Shown piece after piece: positions 34,474-46,197 of a DNA stretch of 64,000 bases. The translations under genes and the position numbers were made by a program. The DNA is taken from assembly GCA_022841465.1 (NCBI GenBank), contig JALHRL010000007.1:28458-92457 (forward strand). Reading direction: 5' to 3'. Positions within the stretch are counted from its first letter, which is position 1. Every line of letters starts with the position of its first letter. The DNA comes from Bacteroidia bacterium. GTDB taxonomy: Bacteria > Bacteroidota > Bacteroidia > B-17B0 > Aurantibacillaceae. Below the pieces are notes generated by a model, which saw nothing but the letters and a program-made list of their open reading frames with translations, did no database searches and had not been told where the DNA came from.

Positions 34474-34530
34474 TTTCAAACACTCATTTAACAAATCTTC
34501 TTAATAATGTTTTCTTATCTTTATAAACGT

Positions 34531-37500
34531 ATGTTTAAAAAGATAATATTACTCTCTTTATTACTCACCGTACAATTTATTTTTTCTCAAAGCTTTCAAA
34601 AAGATTTAGAAAAAATTCAATCTAAAGTGGAGAATGGCGCTTCTGTAGAGCCTTTAGAATACGAAAATCTAATTCAAAAATACGAAAAGGAGTTTTTAAA
34701 TTTTCCGGATGAGGCAACTCAAGTTTATTTTTATTTGGGTAACAGCCTTTATTTAAATGAAAAAACAGACGATGCCATTTTAAATTACAAAAATGCTTAC
34801 AATTATTCTTTAAAAGCAAAGGACACTACGTTAAAATATTTAATTATTCTTACTTACGCTCGCATTAGTAATAACATGGGTAATTATCAAAAAGCAGATG
34901 ATTATTACAGGTATGCATTACCCGGTCTTGCAGTTATCTATGGTCAATCTAGTTTAGATTATACTGCCGTTTTTATGGAATATATTCGGGTGTTAATTAA
35001 TATGGAACGATATAGTGAAGCACTACCTTTATTATCTTCTTTAGAAACGTATTTTAAAACATTAAATATGGAAAACCACCCCATGTATTTAATGGTAATA
35101 GGCAACCAAGGTTATGTTTATAACGAGCAAGGATTATACAACGATGCAATTGCCAAATACGAATATGTTTTAGAAGGAGAAAAATTAATTAAGGCAGGAG
35201 ATACATTAGAGCACGTGGTGTTAACTACCAATATTGCTGAATCTTATCGAGAAATGGGCGAGTACGATATGGCAATTAAATACCAACAAAATGCTAAACG
35301 AATGATGCAACAGTATCGTGTTAATAATCCGGCGCAAAGTGCAAGTATTGAAAACAATTTAGGTTTAATTTATAAATCAATTGGAAACTATAAGGCCTCT
35401 GAGGAAGCATTTGATAACGCTATTTTCATTTACAAGAAAAATAATTTTGATGAGTCGGAAGAATATTGTAGCGCTTTAAGTAACAAGGCTGATTTGATGC
35501 GAGTGCTAAGCAGAAGAGAAGATGGTCTGAAATTATTAACAGAAGCCTTAAGAATAAGAAAATCTAAATATGGAACTGATTCTGAAAACTACGCCAATGC
35601 ATTAAGTAATTACGGCTTAATTTTATTTGAGGACGGGAACACAAAAGAAGCATTATCATATTTTGAAGAAGCAACTAAAATTTACGAAGGAACAGTTTCT
35701 AAAAAACATCAAAGCTATGCTAATAGTTTAAACAACCTTTCTGCCTGTTATTTAGATTTAGGAAAGTTGCAAGATGCGGAAAAGTATAAAACAGAAGCTA
35801 TTAAAATTATTGAAGAAACACTTGGTAAAAATCATTTTCGTTATATTTCTTTTTTAATAAGTGCATGGGAAATATACGTGCAAAAAAAGGAATATGATAA
35901 AGGCGCTGCTTTATTAAAGGAAGCAAAAGAGTTAGCGTTAAAAAAATTCGGCAAATCGCATTATTTGTATTTAAGAGCCAATTTTAATTTGGCAGTTATA
36001 AATACCTGGCAAAAGAATTACAAAGAAGCCGTTGATTTATATACTCATGTTTTGGATATTCAACTACAAAACATCAATACTTATTTTTTTACCATGAATA
36101 AGGTAAACCAAATGAGTTTTTTAGAAGAATCTCAAATTAATTTATTTTATTTTTCTACTACTCTGTTTAATTATATGGAAGAGAATCCTAAAGTTGATTT
36201 GAGTGTATATATAGAAAAAATGCTGAATTATCAATTACTTGTAAAATCGTTGTTAAACAAAAGCACAACTCAATGGCAAAAAACGCTGGTGCAATCAAAC
36301 AATGATGCCTTAAAAGAAGATTATAACAAATGGTTAAAGTTGCGCAATGCCTTAAACGATTTGTATAAAATGGATTTTACGTTAGAAGAACAAGACAGGT
36401 TAATTGAAGATATTAATTCGCTGGAAACAACAATAAAAAAGCAAGTAAATGTTGAAAGTGAAAAACCTTTAAGTTTTTCGGAGTTAAAGAAGAGTTTAAA
36501 AACCGGTGAATTGGCAGTAGAAATTTTAAGTTATAATTGCTTGGTGAACGATACAACTTCTATTGTTAAGTATGTTGCCATTTGTTCTAATTCTAAAGAC
36601 ACAAAACCAAGTTGTATTTTGTTAAATAATAGTGAGTTTAATGAAACAAGAGCACTTGAATATTATAATTCTTTAATGGAAGATGAAAAATTAGATTCCT
36701 TATCTTATGGTGTTTTCTCTGAAAAGTTATTAAACAAAAACAGAATTGAGCGAAAAATTTACATTTCGGCTCAAGGAGTTTATAATAAAGTAAACTTAAA
36801 CTCACTCTATAATACTCAAACTAATAAGTACTTAATAGAAGAGTATGAAATTACTTATTTAGCAAGTTTAAGCGCAATTAAGAATTTTACATTAAGCGGT
36901 AACAGTCAGTTAAGTGCTGAGCTTTTTGGTAATCCTGATTTTGCTTATGATTTTAGAAACAATAAGGCTTCCAAAAATAAAGAAAAAACACAATTGCTTG
37001 CCAAGCGTTATGGCTTAACTCAAATTGATGAATTGCCCGGAACTGAAACCGAAATTAACGGTGTAAGTAAAACCTTGGAGTTGAAAAACTGGAAATATAG
37101 TATTTACAAAAAGAAAGATGCCAATGAAGAGAATTTGAGAAAGGTGCAGTCGCCAAAGTTATTACACATTGCAACGCACGGTTATTTTATAAAAGATATT
37201 GAAACGGAAGATAAAAAGTTTTTGGGTTTTAACAGCGAAGCTTTTAGTCAGCTAGCAGATTTAAAATCAGGTTTAATTATGGCAGGGGCTGCTGTTAATA
37301 CAAACGATAGTGTTTTTGTAAGCGCAGAAAAAGATGGGATATTTACAGCCCGTGAAGCTTCACAGCTGAATTTAAGCAATACCGATTTGGTGGTGCTTTC
37401 CGCTTGTCAAACCGGCTTGGGTTTCGATTTTGGAAATCAAGGTGTAATTGGTTTGCAACAAGCACTTAGCAATGCGGGAGCTAAAAATTTAATTATGAGT

Positions 37501-37677
37501 TTGTGGCCTGTTGATGATAATGCAACGCAGCTATTAATGACTAAATTTTATGAGGCTTGGGCTTTAGACAGTAGTAACCAAAACATTGCTTCTGCATTTA
37601 GGTTAGCTCAAAATGAAGTAAAAAAAGTTTACAAACATCCTTACTATTGGGGAGCATTTGTGCTTTTTAAAAACTAG
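34531..37677 (+). CDS. Exported TPR-CHAT domain protein (putative caspase-like protease)
   Basis: A protein of about 1048 residues: signal peptide (MFKKIILLSLLLTVQFIFSQ), then about a dozen tetratricopeptide repeats over the first half, then a C-terminal CHAT domain. The CHAT catalytic pair is visible: His in LLHIATHGYF (37165-37194) and Cys in VVLSACQTGLG (codon at 37405), followed by SLWPVDDNATQLLM. CHAT proteases belong to the caspase/separase clan. TPRs usually supply protein recognition. Most described CHAT systems act in the cytoplasm, so export of this one is notable. The Met at 34531 was chosen over 34507 because it begins the signal peptide. Confidence 0.88.
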   Translation: MFKKIILLSLLLTVQFIFSQSFQKDLEKIQSKVENGASVEPLEYENLIQKYEKEFLNFPDEATQVYFYLGNSLYLNEKTDDAILNYKNAYNYSLKAKDTTLKYLIILTYARISNNMGNYQKADDYYRYALPGLAVIYGQSSLDYTAVFMEYIRVLINMERYSEALPLLSSLETYFKTLNMENHPMYLMVIGNQGYVYNEQGLYNDAIAKYEYVLEGEKLIKAGDTLEHVVLTTNIAESYREMGEYDMAIKYQQNAKRMMQQYRVNNPAQSASIENNLGLIYKSIGNYKASEEAFDNAIFIYKKNNFDESEEYCSALSNKADLMRVLSRREDGLKLLTEALRIRKSKYGTDSENYANALSNYGLILFEDGNTKEALSYFEEATKIYEGTVSKKHQSYANSLNNLSACYLDLGKLQDAEKYKTEAIKIIEETLGKNHFRYISFLISAWEIYVQKKEYDKGAALLKEAKELALKKFGKSHYLYLRANFNLAVINTWQKNYKEAVDLYTHVLDIQLQNINTYFFTMNKVNQMSFLEESQINLFYFSTTLFNYMEENPKVDLSVYIEKMLNYQLLVKSLLNKSTTQWQKTLVQSNNDALKEDYNKWLKLRNALNDLYKMDFTLEEQDRLIEDINSLETTIKKQVNVESEKPLSFSELKKSLKTGELAVEILSYNCLVNDTTSIVKYVAICSNSKDTKPSCILLNNSEFNETRALEYYNSLMEDEKLDSLSYGVFSEKLLNKNRIERKIYISAQGVYNKVNLNSLYNTQTNKYLIEEYEITYLASLSAIKNFTLSGNSQLSAELFGNPDFAYDFRNNKASKNKEKTQLLAKRYGLTQIDELPGTETEINGVSKTLELKNWKYSIYKKKDANEENLRKVQSPKLLHIATHGYFIKDIETEDKKFLGFNSEAFSQLADLKSGLIMAGAAVNTNDSVFVSAEKDGIFTAREASQLNLSNTDLVVLSACQTGLGFDFGNQGVIGLQQALSNAGAKNLIMSLWPVDDNATQLLMTKFYEAWALDSSNQNIASAFRLAQNEVKKVYKHPYYWGAFVLFKN

Positions 37678-37793
37678 AAAGTGCAAACTCGCTACACAAG
37701 CCTGTTTATAGGAGAAAAAGTAAATATTCCGGATAATTAAAACGCTTCAGATTTACAGTTCAAGAAAAATAATTATCCCGAAATCAAAAATAA

Positions 37794-37827
37794 TTTTGCA
37801 TTATTCATTTTTATTTTTCAATATTTG
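37794..37827 (+). promoter_or_regulatory. Candidate promoter of the arginine operon
   Basis: TTTTG at 37794-37798 and AATATTTG at 37820-37827 (one mismatch to TAnnTTTG), 21 bases apart. A start near 37834 would give a leader of about 260 nt before the first arg gene. The stretch 37678-37793, between the CHAT gene and this promoter, holds only an inverted repeat (37731-37739 with 37770-37778) without a T run. Confidence 0.45.
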
Positions 37828-37872
37828 CAAAATCAATTTTTAAAAACAAAAACACAAGAGCAAAAATCAAAA

Positions 37873-38010
37873 ATGAAAACACTTAATTTCATTCTCTGCT
37901 CAGCCGCATTCGGCAGTAAAATAAGCTCCTTGAGCAAGAGTGTGTTTTTTTCAACAGCAAATATGTTGTTTGTTTTACCCGTACGCCCCGTTTTTTGTAT
38001 CCGACGTTGA
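37873..38010 (+). CDS. Possible arginine-operon leader peptide
   Basis: A 45-codon frame in the long leader ahead of the arginine operon. Its last nine codons read VRPVFCIRR and stop, with three arginine codons (CGC 37984, CGA 38002, CGT 38005), two of them just before the stop. A shorter version from ATG 37963 gives the 15-residue peptide MLFVLPVRPVFCIRR. Control codons for the end product of the operon, followed by hairpins, are the plan of an attenuation leader. Whether it is translated is not known, and three Arg codons could be chance. Confidence 0.4.
   Translation: MKTLNFILCSAAFGSKISSLSKSVFFSTANMLFVLPVRPVFCIRR
37894..37951 (+). promoter_or_regulatory. First hairpin with T run in the arginine leader
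   Basis: The arms CTCTGCTCA (37894-37902) and TGAGCAAGAG (37931-37940, one bulge) enclose a small GCCG/CGGC hairpin. A competing GCTC/GAGC hairpin (37925-37935) uses the same right arm. Seven T follow four bases after the stem. It may be an early terminator inside the leader frame. Confidence 0.35.
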
Positions 38011-38074
38011 TTAGAGCCTAATCTTCTTAAAACTTATTTTGCAGGTCTGTAAAATAGGTCTTCTTTAATTTTTT
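38009..38074 (+). promoter_or_regulatory. Putative attenuator hairpins ahead of the arginine operon
   Basis: Directly at the stop codon of the leader frame stands a perfect hairpin GATTAG-AGC-CTAATC (38009-38023). It is followed by a second one with arms 38035-38043 and 38048-38056 (one G-T pair), extended by two pairs and then a T-rich tract 38061-38074, like a terminator. Bases 38013-38020 can also pair with 38055-38062 (seven of eight, counting G-T), which would open both hairpins. This mutually exclusive pairing is what an attenuator needs, but it has not been folded by program. Confidence 0.4.
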
Positions 38075-38093
38075 CACTTTTAATTTTAATTGA

Positions 38094-38753
38094 ATGCAAC
38101 ATTTTGTTGTGCAGGTTGCTAATTTGCAACACCTGCATTTTGCAGAAATTATCTGCAATGAAATGGAGTTATCGGCTAAAGCCAGAGGAACTGGTATAGC
38201 CAAAAGAACTCCAGATTATATCCGGCAAAAAATGCTGGAAGGTAAAGCGGTAATTGCTCTTCATAAAAATGGCAATTGGGCAGGGTTTTGCTATATCGAA
38301 ACCTGGAGCCATGGTAAGTACGTGGCTAATTCCGGTTTAATTGTTTCTCCTGAATATAGAAAAAGTGGACTAGCAACTTTAATAAAACAAAAAATATTTC
38401 AGCTTTCAAGGAATAAATTTCCGGAAGCAAAAATATTTGGATTAACTACCGGTCTTGCTGTTATGAAAATTAATTCGGAATTGGGTTACGAGCCTGTTAC
38501 CTATTCTGAATTAACGCAAGATGAAGCTTTTTGGAAAGGTTGTCAGAGCTGTGTAAACTTTGAAATTTTAAAAAGCAAAGAACGAAAAAATTGCCTTTGT
38601 ACTGCCATGCTTTTTAATCCTGCAGAAAAGAATAAACCACGACGATGGTTTGATTTAGGTCAACAAAAAGTGATGGAAAGATTATTGCGAATGAAGCAAA
38701 CTATTTTTCTAAAAAAATTAAGAATTACTAAAAAAGAAACGATAACAATTTAA
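38094..38753 (+). CDS. GNAT acetyltransferase, probable N-acylglutamate synthase
   Basis: A 219-residue GNAT-fold acyltransferase as first gene of the arginine operon. The acyl-CoA binding region is SGLIVSPEYRKSGLATLIK, and FGLTTGLAVMKINSELGYEPV forms the next conserved part. No argA or argJ is present, so this enzyme probably makes the N-acyl (succinyl or acetyl) glutamate that enters the pathway. A similar gene of Bacteroides thetaiotaomicron has been linked to this step by genetics. The C-terminal part has Cys pairs (GCQSC and NCLC) that could bind metal. argG follows after three bases. Confidence 0.75.
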   Translation: MQHFVVQVANLQHLHFAEIICNEMELSAKARGTGIAKRTPDYIRQKMLEGKAVIALHKNGNWAGFCYIETWSHGKYVANSGLIVSPEYRKSGLATLIKQKIFQLSRNKFPEAKIFGLTTGLAVMKINSELGYEPVTYSELTQDEAFWKGCQSCVNFEILKSKERKNCLCTAMLFNPAEKNKPRRWFDLGQQKVMERLLRMKQTIFLKKLRITKKETITI

Positions 38754-38756
38754 AAA

Positions 38757-39977
38757 ATGAAAAAGAATATACTATTAGCATTTAGCGGCGGCTTAGATAC
38801 TACTTTTTGCGCCATTTATCTGAAAAATGAATTGAGTTACAATGTTCACGCTGTATGTATTGATACAGGCGGATTTAGTGATATTGAAAAATCAAAACTT
38901 GAAATACATGCTACGCAATTAGGTGTTGCCAGTTTTAAAATAATTGATGTAAAAAATAATTACTACAATAAAATAATTAAATATTTGATATTTGGAAACA
39001 TTTTAAAAAACAACACTTATCCACTTTCAGTAAGTGCAGAAAGAATTATTCAGGCATTGGCAATTGCCGATTATGCCAAAATTTTAAATGTTGATGCAAT
39101 TGCACATGGAAGCACAGGCGCCGGAAACGACCAGGTTCGTTTTGATATGGCTTTTCAAATTTTAGCACCAGACTTAAAAATTATTACACCTATTAGAGAT
39201 TTAAAGCTTTCAAGGCAAGAAGAAATTGACTATTTGAAAAAGCACCAAATTGAAATGAATTTTGAGAAAGCAGTTTATAGCGTAAACAAAGGAATATGGG
39301 GCAATTCGGTTGGTGGTAAAGAAACACTTACATCACACCTGCCATTACCAGATGATGCTTGGCCAACACAGGTTTATAAAAATGGAAATGAGAAAATAGA
39401 ATTGGATTTTAAAAATGGAGAATTAATTGGTATAAATAATGAAGTTTTTAATAGTAAGGTAGAGGCTATTGAAAGATTATCAGAAATTACTTCGCCCTAT
39501 GGTATAGGCAGAGATATTCATGTAGGAGATACTATTATTGGTATTAAAGGAAGAGTTGGTTTTGAAGCAGCAGCTCCATTAATTATAATAAAAGCACATC
39601 ATGCTTTAGAAAAACACGTGCTTACAAAATGGCAATTATATTGGAAAGATCAAATGGCATTATGGTATGGCAATTGGTTACATGAAGGGCAGTATCTTGA
39701 TCCTGTTATGCGAGATATGGAATCTTTTTTTGAAAGTACCCAACAACAGGTAAGTGGAAAGGTGTTTATTTCTCTTAAACCATATCGTTTTGTTATTGAT
39801 GGAATTACTTCTCCACACGATTTAATGAATAACAGTTTTGGTACTTACGGAGAAATGAATAAATCCTTTACCGGCGACGATGTAAAAGGCTTTACAAAAA
39901 TATTTGGAAATCAAACAGCCATTTATTACAAAGTAAATGAATTGAAAAACCAATTAATGTTTGAAGAAAATGATTAA
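38757..39977 (+). CDS. argG: Argininosuccinate synthase
   Basis: Joins citrulline and aspartate with ATP to argininosuccinate. The 406-residue enzyme has the PP-loop SGGLDT near its N-terminus (ILLAFSGGLDTTFC), AHGSTGAGNDQVRF and SPYGIGRDIHVGDTI. It stands second in the operon. In an acylated-ornithine pathway it acts after removal of the acyl group from N-acyl citrulline by the argE-like enzyme. Its last bases overlap the start of argC by eight bases. Confidence 0.95.
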   Translation: MKKNILLAFSGGLDTTFCAIYLKNELSYNVHAVCIDTGGFSDIEKSKLEIHATQLGVASFKIIDVKNNYYNKIIKYLIFGNILKNNTYPLSVSAERIIQALAIADYAKILNVDAIAHGSTGAGNDQVRFDMAFQILAPDLKIITPIRDLKLSRQEEIDYLKKHQIEMNFEKAVYSVNKGIWGNSVGGKETLTSHLPLPDDAWPTQVYKNGNEKIELDFKNGELIGINNEVFNSKVEAIERLSEITSPYGIGRDIHVGDTIIGIKGRVGFEAAAPLIIIKAHHALEKHVLTKWQLYWKDQMALWYGNWLHEGQYLDPVMRDMESFFESTQQQVSGKVFISLKPYRFVIDGITSPHDLMNNSFGTYGEMNKSFTGDDVKGFTKIFGNQTAIYYKVNELKNQLMFEEND

Positions 39978-40944
39978 AGCAGGAATAATTGGTGGAGCGG
40001 GCTATACCGGAGGTGAAGTGCTTAGATTATTGCTAAATCATCCTAATGTAGAAATTGCTTTTGTTCAAAGTGAAAGTAAAAGTGGTGAAAAGGTGTATTT
40101 AACGCATTTAGATTGCTTTGGTGCCACTGATTTAAATTTTCAAAAAGAAATTGAAAATGCAGATGTGTTCTTTTTATGTAAGGGTCATGGTGAATCAATA
40201 AAAGTATTAGAAAATAATAATATTTCTAATAAAACCAAGGTTATTGATTTAAGTCAGGATTTCAGACATCAATCAAAATCTGTGTTTAAAGAAAGAAAAT
40301 TTATATATGGTTTACCGGAATTAAACAAAGCATTTATTGAAAGCTCCAATAGTGTTGCTAACCCGGGTTGTTTTGCAACCGCTATTCAACTGGGTTTACT
40401 ACCTCTTGCAACCAAGCAATTGCTTTGTAGTGATATTCATATTAATGCCGTAACGGGTTCTACCGGAGCGGGACAAAGTTTATCGCCAACCAACCATTTT
40501 TCGTGGAGAAATAATAATCATAGTGCTTATAAAACTTTCCAACATCAACACGAAGTTGAAATTTTAGAAAGTTTGTCTTCCTTACAGAAATCTAACATTG
40601 GCGACTTGTATTTTAATCCGCAGCGTGGCGCCTTTACAAGAGGAATTTATATGAATGCTAGTATTAAGGGTGATTTTAACTTGAAAGAACTGGAAGAGTT
40701 GTATAAAAGCTATTATTACAATCATCCATTTACAAAGTTAGTTCCCTTTGAACCGGATGTGAAGCAGGTAGTTAATACCAATAATTGTTATGTGCATTTA
40801 CAGATTCAAAAAAACAGTTTAATAATTACTTCCGTGATAGATAATTTATTAAAAGGCGCAGCGGGTCAAGCCATACAAAACATGAACTTAATGTTTGGCT
40901 TAAGCGAAACTTCTGGGTTGAAATTAAAAGCATCTGTTTTTTAA
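39970..40944 (+). CDS. argC: N-acyl-gamma-glutamyl-phosphate reductase
   Basis: Reduces N-acylglutamyl phosphate to the semialdehyde with NADPH. The 324-residue enzyme shows the cofactor loop GIIGGAGYTGGEVLRLL and catalytic Cys134 in SVANPGCFATAIQLG, plus the HQHEVEI motif. The frame opens at a TTG three codons earlier, but ATG 39970 gives the regular N-terminus and overlaps argG by eight bases, a sign of translational coupling. Confidence 0.95.
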   Translation: MIKAGIIGGAGYTGGEVLRLLLNHPNVEIAFVQSESKSGEKVYLTHLDCFGATDLNFQKEIENADVFFLCKGHGESIKVLENNNISNKTKVIDLSQDFRHQSKSVFKERKFIYGLPELNKAFIESSNSVANPGCFATAIQLGLLPLATKQLLCSDIHINAVTGSTGAGQSLSPTNHFSWRNNNHSAYKTFQHQHEVEILESLSSLQKSNIGDLYFNPQRGAFTRGIYMNASIKGDFNLKELEELYKSYYYNHPFTKLVPFEPDVKQVVNTNNCYVHLQIQKNSLIITSVIDNLLKGAAGQAIQNMNLMFGLSETSGLKLKASVF

Positions 40945-40983
40945 ATAGTATTAGTAAAAATCAATTTATAATAAAAATAAAAA

Positions 40984-42126
40984 ATGAAAACATTCAATGT
41001 ATATCCTCTAACACCCATTACTCCGGTAAAAGCGAAAGGCTTGTGCTTATGGGATGAGAACAACGTTAAGTATTTAGATTTGTATGGAGGGCATGCTGTA
41101 ATTTCAATTGGGCATAGCCATCCACATTATATAAAAAAAATATCAGATCAGTTAAATACTATTGGATTTTATTCTAATTCGGTGCTAAATCCTTTGCAAG
41201 AAGAGTTAGCGTATAAATTAGGAAAAGCCAGTGGTTATGGTGATTATAGTTTGTTTTTGTGTAACTCAGGAGCGGAAGCAAATGAGAATGCATTAAAGCT
41301 GGCATCGTTTAAAAATAAAAGAAAAAAAGTAATTGCTTTTACAGGAAGTTTTCACGGAAGAACTTCTTTGGCAGTAGCAGCTACTAACGATAACTCAATT
41401 CAAGCAATGGTTAATTTAAATCATGAAATTGAGTTTTTGCCTTTAAATGATGAAGCAGCGTTTGTAAATTCTATGCATGAAAACGTTTGTGCTGTAATAA
41501 TTGAAGGAATACAAGGTGTTGCCGGTATTGAGTTGCCTAGTACTTCTTTTTTACAATTATTAAGAAAAAAGTGCGATGAATTTGGCGCTGTATTGATTTT
41601 AGATGAAGTTCAATCGGGTTATGGTAGAAGCGGTAAGTTTTTTGCGCATCAGTCTGCAAATATAAAACCGGATTTAATTACTGTTGCAAAAGGTATGGGT
41701 AATGGTTTTCCAATTGGCGGAGTTTTAATTTCTCAGGATTTTGAAGCCAAATACGGTATGTTAGGGACAACATTTGGAGGAAATCATTTGGCTTGTGCTG
41801 CTGCAATTGCTGTATTAGATGTTTTAGAAAATGAGAAGCTAATTGAAAATGCAGCCAAACTTGGTGAAAGATGGATAGAACAATTGAAGCAAATAGACGG
41901 TGTAAAGGAGGTAAGAGGCAAAGGTTTAATGATTGGTTTAGAATTTGATTTTCCAATTGCAGAAATTAAAATCGCGTTAACAAACAAACACCATATTTTG
42001 GTGGGTACCGCTTCCAATAAAAAGGTAATACGATTATTACCGGCTTTAACCATTACCGAATCCGAAATAAAATCTTTTAATGAAGCTTTGCAGAAAGAAC
42101 TTCATAGTTTAAAACTTAAAGGTTAA
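40984..42126 (+). CDS. argD: N-acylornithine aminotransferase
   Basis: Class III PLP-dependent aminotransferase that forms N-acylornithine from the semialdehyde with glutamate as amino donor. The 380-residue enzyme has NSGAEANENALKLA, the PLP-contacting ILDEVQSGYGRSGKFFAHQ, and the Schiff-base Lys in TVAKGMGNGFPIGG. The position in the operon and the carbamoyltransferase downstream suggest an N-succinyl or N-acetyl substrate rather than free ornithine. argF' follows after 21 bases. Confidence 0.94.
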   Translation: MKTFNVYPLTPITPVKAKGLCLWDENNVKYLDLYGGHAVISIGHSHPHYIKKISDQLNTIGFYSNSVLNPLQEELAYKLGKASGYGDYSLFLCNSGAEANENALKLASFKNKRKKVIAFTGSFHGRTSLAVAATNDNSIQAMVNLNHEIEFLPLNDEAAFVNSMHENVCAVIIEGIQGVAGIELPSTSFLQLLRKKCDEFGAVLILDEVQSGYGRSGKFFAHQSANIKPDLITVAKGMGNGFPIGGVLISQDFEAKYGMLGTTFGGNHLACAAAIAVLDVLENEKLIENAAKLGERWIEQLKQIDGVKEVRGKGLMIGLEFDFPIAEIKIALTNKHHILVGTASNKKVIRLLPALTITESEIKSFNEALQKELHSLKLKG

Positions 42127-42147
42127 TTAATTAAAATAATAATTACA

Positions 42148-43143
42148 ATGAAACATTTTACCACAGTAAATGATATAGCTAATCCTGAATTATTAATAGA
42201 GGAGGCTATACAATTAAAATCAAATCCCTATCAATTTAGTGAATTGGGTAAATTTAAAACATTAGGACTTGTTTTTTTAAATCCAAGCTTAAGAACGCGT
42301 TTAAGTACTCAAAAAGCCGCTAAAATACTGGGAATGGAAGTTATGGTTATGAATCTTGATAAAGAGAGTTGGGCCATAGAATGGAATGATGATGTAATAA
42401 TGAATAGTAATAATGTTGAACACATAAAGGATGCAGCTACTGTTTTAGGTTCTTACTGCGATATAATTGGTATAAGATGTTTCCCTTCATTAACAGATAA
42501 GAAATTAGATTACAGTGAGAAAATATTACTGCAATTAATGAAGTATTGCAATGTACCGGTTATTAGCCTTGAGTCGGCAACATTACATCCATTACAAAGT
42601 TTAGCAGATGCAATTACAATTAAAGAAAATTGGAAAGAACCTTACAAACCTAAAGTAGTATTAACCTGGGCACCGCATATTAAAGCATTGCCTCAGGCTG
42701 TGCCTAATTCTTTTGCTGAATGGATGTGTAAGTTGGATATTGATTTTACTATAGCACAACCCGAAGGTTATGAATTATGTGATGATTATACATCAGGCGC
42801 TAAAATTACTTACAATCAAGAGGAGGCATTGAATGAAGCAGATTTTGTATATGTAAAAAATTGGTCGTGTTACCATAATTATGGAAAAACACCGGAGGTA
42901 AATAGCAACTGGATGATGGATTTGGAAAAGTATAAACTTACGAATGAAGCAGGAATTATGCATTGTTTGCCGGTAAGAAGAGATGTGGAATTAAGCAGCA
43001 AGCTAATTGATCATACAAACAGTTTAATTCAACAGCAAGCGGCAAACAGAGTATATGCCGCACAAACGGTTTTAAAAAACATTTTGCAGGGAGGATATAT
43101 GAAGAAAAATTTATCAGAGAAATACAGTTTAGAAGAGGCATGA
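42148..43143 (+). CDS. argF': N-acylornithine carbamoyltransferase (argF' type)
   Basis: Transfers the carbamoyl group to N-acylornithine, giving N-acylcitrulline, the special step of the Bacteroidota and Xanthomonas route. The 331-residue protein shows the carbamoyl phosphate motif SLRTR (residues 47-51), HPLQSLADA and HCLPVRR. At the position that tells the two known types apart (Pro90 in the Bacteroides succinylornithine enzyme, Glu92 in the Xanthomonas acetylornithine enzyme), this protein has Val90 in NNVEHI. Mutational work on the Xanthomonas enzyme indicates that small or hydrophobic residues there favour succinylornithine, so a succinyl substrate is the better guess. The stop overlaps argB (ATGA). 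Confidence 0.92.
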   Translation: MKHFTTVNDIANPELLIEEAIQLKSNPYQFSELGKFKTLGLVFLNPSLRTRLSTQKAAKILGMEVMVMNLDKESWAIEWNDDVIMNSNNVEHIKDAATVLGSYCDIIGIRCFPSLTDKKLDYSEKILLQLMKYCNVPVISLESATLHPLQSLADAITIKENWKEPYKPKVVLTWAPHIKALPQAVPNSFAEWMCKLDIDFTIAQPEGYELCDDYTSGAKITYNQEEALNEADFVYVKNWSCYHNYGKTPEVNSNWMMDLEKYKLTNEAGIMHCLPVRRDVELSSKLIDHTNSLIQQQAANRVYAAQTVLKNILQGGYMKKNLSEKYSLEEA

Positions 43144-43916
43144 AAAAATTAATTATTGTAAAAATTGGTGGAAATGTAATTGATGATGAGATTGCCTTAA
43201 AAAAGTTTCTAATTCTGTTTTCTAAAATAAAGGGAGATAAAATATTGATACATGGTGGTGGTAAATTAGCTACGCGATTGTCTGAAAAGCTTGGAATTGA
43301 AACGGAACTTATAGAAGGAAGAAGAATTACAAATAAAGAAACTTTAAAAGTTACAACCATGGTTTATGCCGGTTGGATAAATAAAAGTATAAGTGCTCTT
43401 TTAAATTCAAATAATTGCAAGGCAATAGGTTTATCTGGAGCAGATGCATTTATAATTCCTGCTAAAAAAAGAAAACTTGGTAAAATTGATTATGGCTTTG
43501 TAGGAGATGTTATAAAAGAAAAGATTAACATCAAATTAGTAAAAGCGTTGTTGGATTCTAAATTAACTCTGGTAATAGCGCCAATTACAAGTGATAAAAA
43601 CGGACAGTTACTGAATACAAATGCCGATACCATTGCTGCTTCTTTGGCAAGCGCATTATCAAATCTATACAAGGTTAAATTAATTTATTGCTTTGAAAAG
43701 AATGGTGTTTTAAATGGTGGAAAAGTAATTAAACAATTAGGATTTGGAAGTTATAATGAATTAAAAGAAAAAGGAATTATTAAAGATGGTATGATACCAA
43801 AATTAGATAATGCATTTTCCACAATTGAAAATGGAGTTAAGGAGGTAGTAATTGGTAACGCAAATCAATTAAATAACATAATAAGTAAAAATGCAGGTAC
43901 AAGTATCATCAAATAA
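43140..43916 (+). CDS. argB: N-acylglutamate kinase
   Basis: Phosphorylates N-acylglutamate with ATP, the second step of the pathway. The 258-residue amino acid kinase-fold protein has VKIGGNVIDD, ILIHGGGKLATRLSEKLG and NTNADTIAASLASAL. There is no N-terminal helix of the kind seen in arginine-inhibited kinases, so feedback inhibition by arginine is not expected at this enzyme. That would leave control to the transcript leader. It overlaps argF' by four bases and argE by 26 bases. Confidence 0.94.
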   Translation: MKKLIIVKIGGNVIDDEIALKKFLILFSKIKGDKILIHGGGKLATRLSEKLGIETELIEGRRITNKETLKVTTMVYAGWINKSISALLNSNNCKAIGLSGADAFIIPAKKRKLGKIDYGFVGDVIKEKINIKLVKALLDSKLTLVIAPITSDKNGQLLNTNADTIAASLASALSNLYKVKLIYCFEKNGVLNGGKVIKQLGFGSYNELKEKGIIKDGMIPKLDNAFSTIENGVKEVVIGNANQLNNIISKNAGTSIIK

Positions 43917-44988
43917 AAGCTCAGAGTTGTTGTATAACAATGCAGTTGACTTATTAAGTGAGTTAATTAGGACCCCAAGTTATAGCAAGGAAGAGGATAA
44001 AACAGCGCTTATTATAGAGTTGTTTTTAAAAGAAAAGGGAGTAGAGGTAAACAAATATTTAAATAATGTATGGGCAAGAAATAAATATTTTGATGATTCT
44101 AAACCTACCATTTTGCTTAATTCTCATCACGACACTGTTAAGCCAAATAAACAGTACACTTTTAAACCATTTGAGCCTATATTAAATGGCGGGAAATTAT
44201 TTGGCTTAGGAAGTAATGATGCAGGTGGAGCACTTGTAAGTTTATTAGTAACCTTTTTATATTATTATGATTGTGAAAATTTGAAATACAATTTAATTTT
44301 TGCAGCCAGTGCAGAAGAAGAAATTTCGGGCAACAATGGTATTGAAGCCTTGTTGACATTATTAGGCGATATAGAATTTGGTATTGTGGGAGAGCCAACA
44401 CAAATGCAAATGGCTGTGGTAGAAAAAGGTTTGTTGGTGTTAGATTGCAGGAGTATTGGTAAAGCTGGACATGCTGCAAGAGAAGAGGGTGAAAATGCAA
44501 TTGCAAAAACATGGGAAGATATTAACTGGTTTAATAGTTATAAGTTTGATAAGGTATCGGAATTATTAGGTCCGGTTAAAATGAACGTTACTGTTATTGA
44601 AACAGAAAACAAAGCGCATAATGTGATTCCATCGTCATGCAAATTTGTTGTTGATATAAGAGTAAATGAGCTTTATACGTTTGATGATGTTTTATCAATA
44701 ATTACTGAACATGTTAAGAGCGAAGTAAAACCCAGAAGTTTAAGAATGAAATCTAGTAGTATCTCGCTTAATCATCCCATAATAAAAAGTGGTTTAAGTA
44801 TTGGTAGAACATACTACGGTTCACCAACAACCAGCGATAAAGCTTTAATGAATTTCCCAACCTTAAAAATGGGACCCGGAGATAGTGCCAGAAGTCATAC
44901 TGCTGATGAATTTATTTATTTGCAAGAAATTAAAGAGGGGATAAGTATTTATTTGAAATTACTAGAGAATGTTTTATTAAACAATTAA
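43891..44988 (+). CDS. argE: M20-family deacylase, probable N-acylcitrulline/N-acylornithine deacylase
   Basis: A zinc peptidase-fold deacylase of 365 residues that should remove the acyl group from N-acylcitrulline. The metal ligands are in LNSHHDTVKP (His, Asp), GSNDAGGALVSL (Asp), and SAEEEISGNNG (catalytic Glu and Glu ligand), and a further VGEPTQ. The last metal His is in the C-terminal SARSHTADEF. The start overlaps argB by 26 bases, an arrangement consistent with coupling. In Bacteroidota the equivalent gene is often annotated as argE or dapE-like. Confidence 0.88.
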   Translation: MQVQVSSNKSSELLYNNAVDLLSELIRTPSYSKEEDKTALIIELFLKEKGVEVNKYLNNVWARNKYFDDSKPTILLNSHHDTVKPNKQYTFKPFEPILNGGKLFGLGSNDAGGALVSLLVTFLYYYDCENLKYNLIFAASAEEEISGNNGIEALLTLLGDIEFGIVGEPTQMQMAVVEKGLLVLDCRSIGKAGHAAREEGENAIAKTWEDINWFNSYKFDKVSELLGPVKMNVTVIETENKAHNVIPSSCKFVVDIRVNELYTFDDVLSIITEHVKSEVKPRSLRMKSSSISLNHPIIKSGLSIGRTYYGSPTTSDKALMNFPTLKMGPGDSARSHTADEFIYLQEIKEGISIYLKLLENVLLNN

Positions 44989-45000
44989 AATTTAAATGAA

Positions 45001-46197
45001 ATGAAAACAAAATTGTGGGAAAAAGATACTTTAACCGATAATGTTATTGAAAAGTTTACCATTGGTAATGATAAAGAGCTTGACTTATTAATTGCTCCAT
45101 TTGATATTGAAGCTTCTATGGTTCATGCTAAAATGCTTCAAAAAGTGGGTTTAATAAGTAATTTAGAATTGCAACAATTACTGGAAGGTTTGAATGAATT
45201 AAAACTTTTGGTGAATAACGGTGAATTTATAATTGAAGAAGGGATTGAAGATATTCACTCTCAAATAGAATTTCATTTAACCAAAAAATACGGAGAAACA
45301 GGTAAAAAAATTCACACTGCAAGAAGTAGAAACGATCAGGTTCTTACTGCCATTAAGCTATTTATTAAACATGAATTGGTTGGTATAAAGGAAAAGAGTT
45401 TGTTGTTAAAAGCTTTATTTAATCAAACAGCTGAAAAACATAAAGGCATTACTTTACCCGGTTATACCCATTTTCAAATTGCAATGCCCTCTTCGTTTGA
45501 TAATTGGTTAAATGCGTTTGCAGAAAGTTTAGATGACGATTTAGAATTATTAAATGCTGCATTTAATATTGCAAATAAAAACCCTTTAGGAAGCGCAGCC
45601 GGTTATGGCACTAATTTTAAAATTGACAGAGAATTTACAACAACCGAGTTAGGATTTGATAGTTATAATGTTAGTCCGGTTTATGCGCAAATGACCAGAG
45701 GTAAAACGGAGAAGGTGGCTGCAATTGCTATTTCGTCTTTGGCTCATACACTTTCAAAGTTTTCATACGATGTGTGTTTGTATTTGTGTCAGAATTTTGG
45801 TTTTATATCGTTCCCTGATAGTTTAACTACAGGAAGCAGTATTATGCCACATAAAAAAAACCCCGATGTTTTTGAATTAATTAGAGCTAAATGTAATGTT
45901 TTACAGGGCTTACCGAATCAGCTTACCTTACTTACCAATAATTTACCAAGCGGCTATCATAGGGATATGCAACTAACTAAAGAACTTTTATTTCCTGCAA
46001 TTAAAGAATTAAAAGAATGTATTGAGGTATTGATTCATGTTCTACCTAAAATGGAGGTCAATAGCAATTGCGCTGAAGATGAAAAGTATAAATACATGTA
46101 CAGTGTAAATAAGGTAAATGAATTGGTAATGCAAGGTTTGTCGTTTAGAGAAGCGTATGGCATAATTGCCGATAAAATTGAAAAGCAAGAGTTTTAG
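45001..46197 (+). CDS. argH: Argininosuccinate lyase
   Basis: Splits argininosuccinate into arginine and fumarate, the last step of the pathway. The protein is 398 residues, shorter than the common 440-460, with the C-terminal helical part reduced. The fumarase-superfamily signature GSSIMPHKKNPDVFEL and the early THTARSRNDQV-type segment (HTARSRNDQVLTA) are intact. It is the last gene of the operon. An inverted repeat follows at 46269-46292. Confidence 0.94.
   Translation: MKTKLWEKDTLTDNVIEKFTIGNDKELDLLIAPFDIEASMVHAKMLQKVGLISNLELQQLLEGLNELKLLVNNGEFIIEEGIEDIHSQIEFHLTKKYGETGKKIHTARSRNDQVLTAIKLFIKHELVGIKEKSLLLKALFNQTAEKHKGITLPGYTHFQIAMPSSFDNWLNAFAESLDDDLELLNAAFNIANKNPLGSAAGYGTNFKIDREFTTTELGFDSYNVSPVYAQMTRGKTEKVAAIAISSLAHTLSKFSYDVCLYLCQNFGFISFPDSLTTGSSIMPHKKNPDVFELIRAKCNVLQGLPNQLTLLTNNLPSGYHRDMQLTKELLFPAIKELKECIEVLIHVLPKMEVNSNCAEDEKYKYMYSVNKVNELVMQGLSFREAYGIIADKIEKQEF

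Follow-up and report, generated by a model that had tools for sequence, protein, structure and literature searches.

A candidate leader-peptide regulator of the arg operon in Bacteroidia without ArgR

How might a bacterium without the arginine repressor ArgR adjust the expression of its arginine biosynthesis genes to the supply of the amino acid? The question is raised by the arg operon of a Bacteroidia genome, which we examined in a window of 64,000 nucleotides (the whole stretch of DNA analysed; coordinates count from its first letter). The first gene of the operon (38094-38753, + strand) encodes a GNAT acetyltransferase (Pfam PF00583), a probable N-acetylglutamate synthase, and is followed by genes for argG, argC, an argD-like aminotransferase, a carbamoyltransferase, argB, an argE-like M20 peptidase and argH (38757-46197, + strand; Pfam matches and ORFs). 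From 562 loci on genome contigs we kept the best 80, and argG lay 3' of the GNAT gene on the same strand in all 80 of them. The gene just 5' of the arg region in the window (34507-37677) encodes a repeat-rich protein of 1056 residues, and no match to it was found beside the arg operon in any of these best 80 of 562 loci. Searches for ArgR returned no match in the window's genome and none over the cut-off in the 87 genomes of the window's order, 17 of which carry the GNAT gene of the arg operon. Arginine synthesis thus looks sporadic in this order.

Upstream of the operon, a pattern search located the promoter-like pair TAATTTTG (37791-37798, + strand) and AATATTTGC (37820-37828, + strand), putative promoter elements judged by the Bacteroidota consensus. 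In the same type of search, an ATTTG(C) element preceded the leader ATG of six relatives by 48-53 nt and the leader GTG of L084 and L086 by 35-39 nt. Downstream of the pair, an ORF of 45 codons (37873-38010, + strand; MKTLNFILCSAAFGSKISSLSKSVFFSTANMLFVLPVRPVFCIRR, then stop) was identified from the ORF list and supported by its homologues and by the ratio of nonsynonymous to synonymous changes (pN/pS). An inner in-frame ATG at 37963 would yield a version of 15 codons. The ORF closes on R-P-V-F-C-I-R-R-TGA, and its tandem Arg codons (CGA CGT, 38002-38007, + strand) are invariant, CGA then CGT, in six close relatives. The earlier note on this DNA had described a frame of 15 to 45 codons ending in these residues before the arg operon, and this frame was confirmed. 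Codons for the end product of the operon stand near the end of the ORF.

A profile built from five leaders and searched in the 87 genomes of the window's order gave strong matches (E <=1e-27) in nine genomes, all nine of them just 5' of a GNAT gene. Three additional matches were weak (E 0.002-0.006), one of which (G282) was also located 5' of a GNAT gene. Sixteen of the 17 GNAT-bearing genomes of the order could be evaluated by eye and 14 of these had an Arg-ended leader; in L148 and L149, which have the GNAT gene, none was visible. Among the best 80 of 562 loci, 77 had an upstream ORF with Arg at position -2 and at least two Arg in the last 12 residues, compared to 7.8% in shuffled sequences and 4 of 80 on the reverse strand. 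When an aromatic residue or Ile was also demanded at -5, 72 of the 80 still qualified (2.0% in shuffles and 0/80 on the reverse strand). The leader length was 44 in all 24 Pedobacter-type leaders, yet the narrow lengths are partly a matter of choice: clades had been selected by the pattern at the end, and among possible starts the one closest to 43 codons was used. Four leaders apparently start with GTG or TTG rather than ATG (L084, L086 and, judged by eye, L027 and L079). Together, these comparisons indicate that the leader is a real, conserved element that belongs to the arg operon and probably takes part in its regulation.

Is the leader translated? The pN/pS ratios fell below 1 in each of four clades and dropped further toward the carboxy terminus, where selection on the peptide is strongest: from 0.49 overall to 0.29 in the last nine codons for six close relatives, from 0.45 to 0.16 for 24 Pedobacter-type leaders, from 0.78 to 0.47 for 28 Chitinophagaceae-type leaders and from 0.55 to 0.41 for 15 Mucilaginibacter-type leaders. 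These values, together with the conserved frame in the four clades, argue that the leader ORF is translated and that residues other than Arg matter. In the Pedobacter-type leaders, for example, Thr at -4 and Pro at -3 are invariant although the third positions of their codons vary, and the last nine codons contain only two Arg codons, which are separated. The motif at the end also differs among leaders, with RRPLGA, RRQPNTAG and others represented. The Arg codons stand out. Those in the last 12 positions were rarer than the Arg codons of genes on the same contig in all five groups (z -6.4, -8.6, -6.8, -13.8 and -9.1), and the other amino acids had a smaller and less regular codon bias, with exceptions such as Ile at z -5.4 and Ser at z -4.3 among Mucilaginibacter-type leaders. 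Of the 96 Arg codons counted in the window's genes, 54 are AGA; the leader, by contrast, closes with CGA CGT.

The ORF itself contains a hairpin (CAACA...TGTTG followed by TTTGTTTTA; 37952-37968, + strand) that folding against shuffles scored at z -1.93 in the window and between -3.88 and +0.47 in relatives, with support in some of these only; it is a possible pause site for RNA polymerase. Between 37930 and 37980 the ORF holds two hairpins that both run into a stretch of T (GAGTGTGTTTTTTT in one case, TTTGTTTTA in the other), and we noted comparable sites in Chitinophagaceae-type leaders and in L084 and L086. Such sites could possibly serve for pausing or early termination. Stop-codon readthrough and a +1 frameshift at CGT-TGA were considered and rejected, as stop codons immediately end these frames in relatives. 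No known Rfam riboswitch, T-box or leader family matched the window at the gathering score, nor did an Rfam leader match any of the 20 loci scanned from the best 80 of 562. The five leader peptides tried against Pfam and NCBIfam had no match either.

A broader sample comprised 149 genomes of the class Bacteroidia. The GNAT protein was matched in 57 of them; one (G026, E 5.8e-4 and three stops) was set aside before counting, leaving 56 GNAT genes. ArgR was found in eight of the 149 genomes, over the cut-off in seven, and coincided with the GNAT gene in four, with argR adjacent in all four. Upstream of the 52 GNAT genes in genomes without ArgR, the tandem-Arg rule was satisfied by 33 (11.2% in shuffles, 6/52 on the reverse strand), the Arg -2 rule by 34 (8.9% in shuffles) and the full motif of Arg -2 with an aromatic residue or Ile at -5 by 20 (1.8% in shuffles). 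Inspection by eye found a plausible leader, weak in several cases, for 41 of the 52 and none for the other 11. These counts, as those for the order, treat genomes as independent and ignore kinship. Further, a set of 92 related leaders used for other comparisons was picked by eye for Arg-bearing ends, which biases its Arg counts and makes the rule-based counts the fair ones. The four genomes with both GNAT gene and ArgR gave 1/4, 1/4 and 0/4 for the tandem-Arg, Arg -2 and full-motif rules; these numbers do not rise above chance (shuffle rates 24%, 20% and 3%) and, therefore, indicate no leader in those four. The leader and ArgR/AhrC repression would carry out the same task, and ArgR is missing over the cut-off from all 87 genomes of the order in which the leader occurs. 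Hence, the best reading of these distributions is that a leader-peptide regulator stands where ArgR is missing.

To act on the operon the leader would need an output, and the region past its stop codon contains two hairpins. The first, P1 (GATTAG-agc-CTAATC; 38009-38023, + strand), begins in the stop codon and has six perfect pairs. The perfect hairpin that the earlier note had placed at the leader stop is thus present, yet it is weak against shuffles in the window (z -1.66, with 10 of 200 shuffles equally good; p=0.107 in a separate test). Across eight relatives its mean z was -1.93 and p was <=0.01 in three of the eight. A hairpin straddling the stop had a Fisher p of 0.007 class-wide and a median p of 0.38, a weak result drawn from 92 leaders that are related and not independent, and we therefore claim P1 for the window's lineage only and, loosely, for Pedobacter-type leaders. 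The second hairpin, P2 (38032-38059, + strand), has 12 pairs and a GGTC loop and is followed by an interrupted T-rich tail (CTTCTTTAATTTTTTC; 38060-38075, + strand). None of 200 shuffles equalled it in the window (z -3.93), and its mean z across the eight relatives was -2.80. In a hand-chosen, ungapped alignment of 28 nt from six relatives, 97.2% of the cells were paired, compared to 31.7-50.0% when the partner was slid, four pairs had changed on both sides, and none of 500 shuffles reached the covariation score. This alignment leaves out L083, L084, L085 and L086, which have other stem lengths, and L141, whose P2 is identical to that of L096. We relied on it because alignment by sequence shifts the stems, and consensus folding of the eight relatives on such an alignment predicted no pairs. 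The comparison of related arg operons thus shows both Arg-rich leader ends and a P2 that is conserved with covariation in six relatives, and the terminator-like hairpin with T tract proposed for this site is borne out. Judged by these sequence data, P2 is a real terminator-like hairpin in the window's lineage. The interval between the ORF and the first gene holds this conserved, covarying hairpin with its T-rich tail, yet a strict terminator scan (37677-38200) found no sites in the window, because no more than two of the P2 stem pairs are G-C and other bases interrupt the T run. The stems of P2 are stronger in some relatives, such as L096.

A third pairing, said to exclude both hairpins (38013-38020 with 38055-38062, AGAGCCTA and TAGGTCTT), fared less well. 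Seven of its eight pairs can form, two of them G-U, and one position is an A-C mismatch; a helix between the post-stop region and the 3' arm of P2 had p=0.175 in the window and a Fisher p of 0.50 over the eight relatives. Nor did any helix of the ORF end, the Arg/stop region or the post-stop region with either arm of P2 beat shuffles over the eight relatives. For a mutually exclusive antiterminator, six region pairs gave Fisher p from 0.09 to 0.83 in those relatives, and no competing helix beat shuffled sequence in the window. With regard to the ribosome-stall switch of the earlier note, the comparisons thus support a translated, Arg-ended leader that is linked to the arg operon in lineages without ArgR, and a P2 conserved in the window's lineage, whereas the three-way switch is not supported.

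Supported antiterminators came from two leaders only, L111 and L112, in another family of the class. Their leaders end RRQPNTAG or RRRPYAAG before the stop. A terminator of the ordinary, G-C-rich type comes next, and its 5' arm is complementary to the closing codons of the ORF (CGGCAGGC; p=0.016 and 0.010). On the evidence of their sequences, both have the complete layout of a classical arg attenuator. A ribosome waiting on the Arg codons would leave CGGCAGGC free, and one at the stop would cover it, which is the expected sign of regulation. Other lineages have a different feature past the leader stop. In ten loci (L005, L006, L007, L012, L015, L075, L088, L097, L098 and L116) we observed a hairpin with a conserved UACGC-like loop about 23-28 nt downstream of the stop; the loop can form 4-7 bp with bases just past the leader stop, a possible pseudoknot. 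A UACGC-like loop without a pairing partner was seen in L118, L120, L122, L091 and L129. The UACGC hairpin had no Rfam match among those scanned (L005, L006, L007, L012, L015 and L075).

Taken together, we favor, as reasonably likely, a reading in which the stretch 37873-38075 regulates the arg operon in cis through a leader peptide that is paced by Arg codons and stands in for ArgR. This reading draws on an ORF under coding selection and linked to the operon, on Arg codons that are rare, on a P2 that covaries and on genomes that lack ArgR. In the proposed mechanism, a ribosome would translate the 45-codon leader behind RNA polymerase and, when charged tRNA-Arg is scarce, pause on the rare Arg codons at the end. 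With plentiful arginine, it would reach the leader stop and leave. The position of the ribosome would then set two things: the formation of P1, whose 5' arm is in the stop region and would be masked by a ribosome that has paused at the Arg codons, and the end of transcription at P2. Under arginine shortage, the operon would be on. Charged tRNA-Arg is the likeliest signal, P2 is presumed to terminate transcription and the operon is expected to be up when arginine is short, so that the leader probably works as a sensor that raises arginine production under shortage. The helix that would undo P2 was not found in the window's lineage, and most leaders of the Pedobacter and Mucilaginibacter types, along with many others, gave no terminator in a looser scan, so that the output may differ by lineage. 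Also weighing against this reading are the negative strict scan in the window, the two separated Arg codons of the Pedobacter type, the rarer codons for other amino acids in some groups, and the GNAT genes without a visible leader (L148, L149 and 11 of 52 in the class sample).

The conservation of residues other than Arg near the leader end counts against pacing, because pacing by codons needs none, and invites a reading in which the peptide itself is the sensor. The carboxy terminus would arrest the ribosome at or near the stop codon in the presence of free arginine (or ornithine), in the manner of TnaC and SpeFL, and turn the operon off. Both peptides are reported to stall at their own stop codons in response to a ligand (PMC8429421), and this precedent, together with the conserved leader end, keeps the peptide sensor in play. 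The combination of Arg -2 with an aromatic residue or Ile at -5 (72 of the best 80 of 562 loci and 20/52 in the class sample), the pN/pS of 0.16 over the last nine Pedobacter-type codons with their invariant Thr and Pro, and the constant length of 44, insofar as start choice allows, all speak for it; conserved residues do form a motif within the last ten positions, with a putative role in arrest. Yet the end motif is not common to all leaders, a preference for rare Arg codons is unexpected if the residue alone matters, and the likeness among the peptides may partly stem from the RNA hairpins and T runs that they overlap. The complete layout of L111 and L112, with the expected sign, led us to prefer pacing by codons and to consider the peptide sensor unlikely. 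Slightly less probable still is a broader form of it, in which an ancient nascent peptide that senses arginine, encoded by a leader of about 33-48 codons, would be common to those Bacteroidia from which ArgR was lost or always absent and would stall the ribosome in response to arginine itself. Its end motif would comprise Arg at -8 or -7, an aromatic residue at -5, Arg at -2 and a final residue that is Arg, Val, Ile or Ala, and its post-stop RNA element would vary by lineage, with a terminator hairpin here and a UACGC-loop pseudoknot in others.

Pacing by Arg codons could also be coupled to an output other than termination, such as access to the start of the first gene, mRNA decay or Rho, as in orf34-speF, with P2 having a structural or stabilizing role. 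In its favor, most leaders outside the window's order have nothing like a terminator ahead of the gene, the A-T-rich P2 goes undetected in the strict scan, and the Salmonella orf34 switch is a ribosome-controlled hairpin 3' of the stop (PMC6386406). Against it stand a P2 and T-rich tail kept with covariation in the window's lineage and the ordinary terminator and antiterminator of L111 and L112, and we regard it as doubtful, below either form of the peptide sensor. A chance ORF followed by chance hairpins in an A-T-rich intergenic region would explain why neither P1 nor the third pairing, taken singly, does better than shuffled sequence in the window. It would not explain a conserved ORF under coding selection, in a fixed place and with a covarying P2 in relatives; the covariation and the profile matches already contradict it, making coincidence scarcely credible.

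The reading that we prefer, pacing by Arg codons, has counterparts among well-studied leaders. The trp, his and leu attenuators (trpL, hisL and leuL) share with the arg leader a short translated ORF, codons for the end product near its end with biased choice, a hairpin at the ORF end and a terminator-like hairpin before the first gene (PMC1183508). The arg leader differs in having 45 codons with two to four Arg codons and no long run, in preceding an arginine operon in Bacteroidota, and in the absence of a supported antiterminator in the window's lineage. As the antiterminator is a defining feature, we do not class it as a member of the trp/his type, though it would work alike. The Salmonella orf34-speF leader shares tandem rare Arg codons, Arg at the end and a ribosome-dependent hairpin just past the stop (PMC6386406). 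It differs in controlling ornithine decarboxylase, in an ORF of 34 codons whose Arg pair lies close to the 5' end, in belonging to a different phylum and in an output that involves RNase G, Rho and start-site access. The tests made here revealed no homology between SpeFL and the leader peptides. In orf34, regulation by arginine was not lost when frequent Arg codons replaced the rare ones (PMC6386406), which advises caution about the weight given to codon rarity. The S. aureus rbfL leader likewise senses arginine shortage by rare Arg codons; it has 8 codons, blocks the start site of a biofilm regulator gene and belongs to a member of the Firmicutes (PMC13009471). By analogy, orf34-speF and rbfL are the nearest working parallels and set precedents for sensing by rare Arg codons. 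Closer in phylogeny, a study of Flavobacterium psychrophilum reports strong clues of leader-peptide attenuation 5' of amino-acid biosynthesis operons (PMC9723704), and these operons may include arg. Searches of open papers turned up no account of an arginine leader peptide in Bacteroidota, the contents of Lopatovskaya (2010) aside.

The arg leader suggests that sensing through translation has widely taken the place of ArgR in a major phylum. Translation initiation in Bacteroidota is not known to rely on Shine-Dalgarno sequences, and the leader makes it testable how such a device is timed under these conditions. It would equally allow one to ask whether, in Bacteroidota, the coupling of translation to transcription is tight enough for attenuation to operate.
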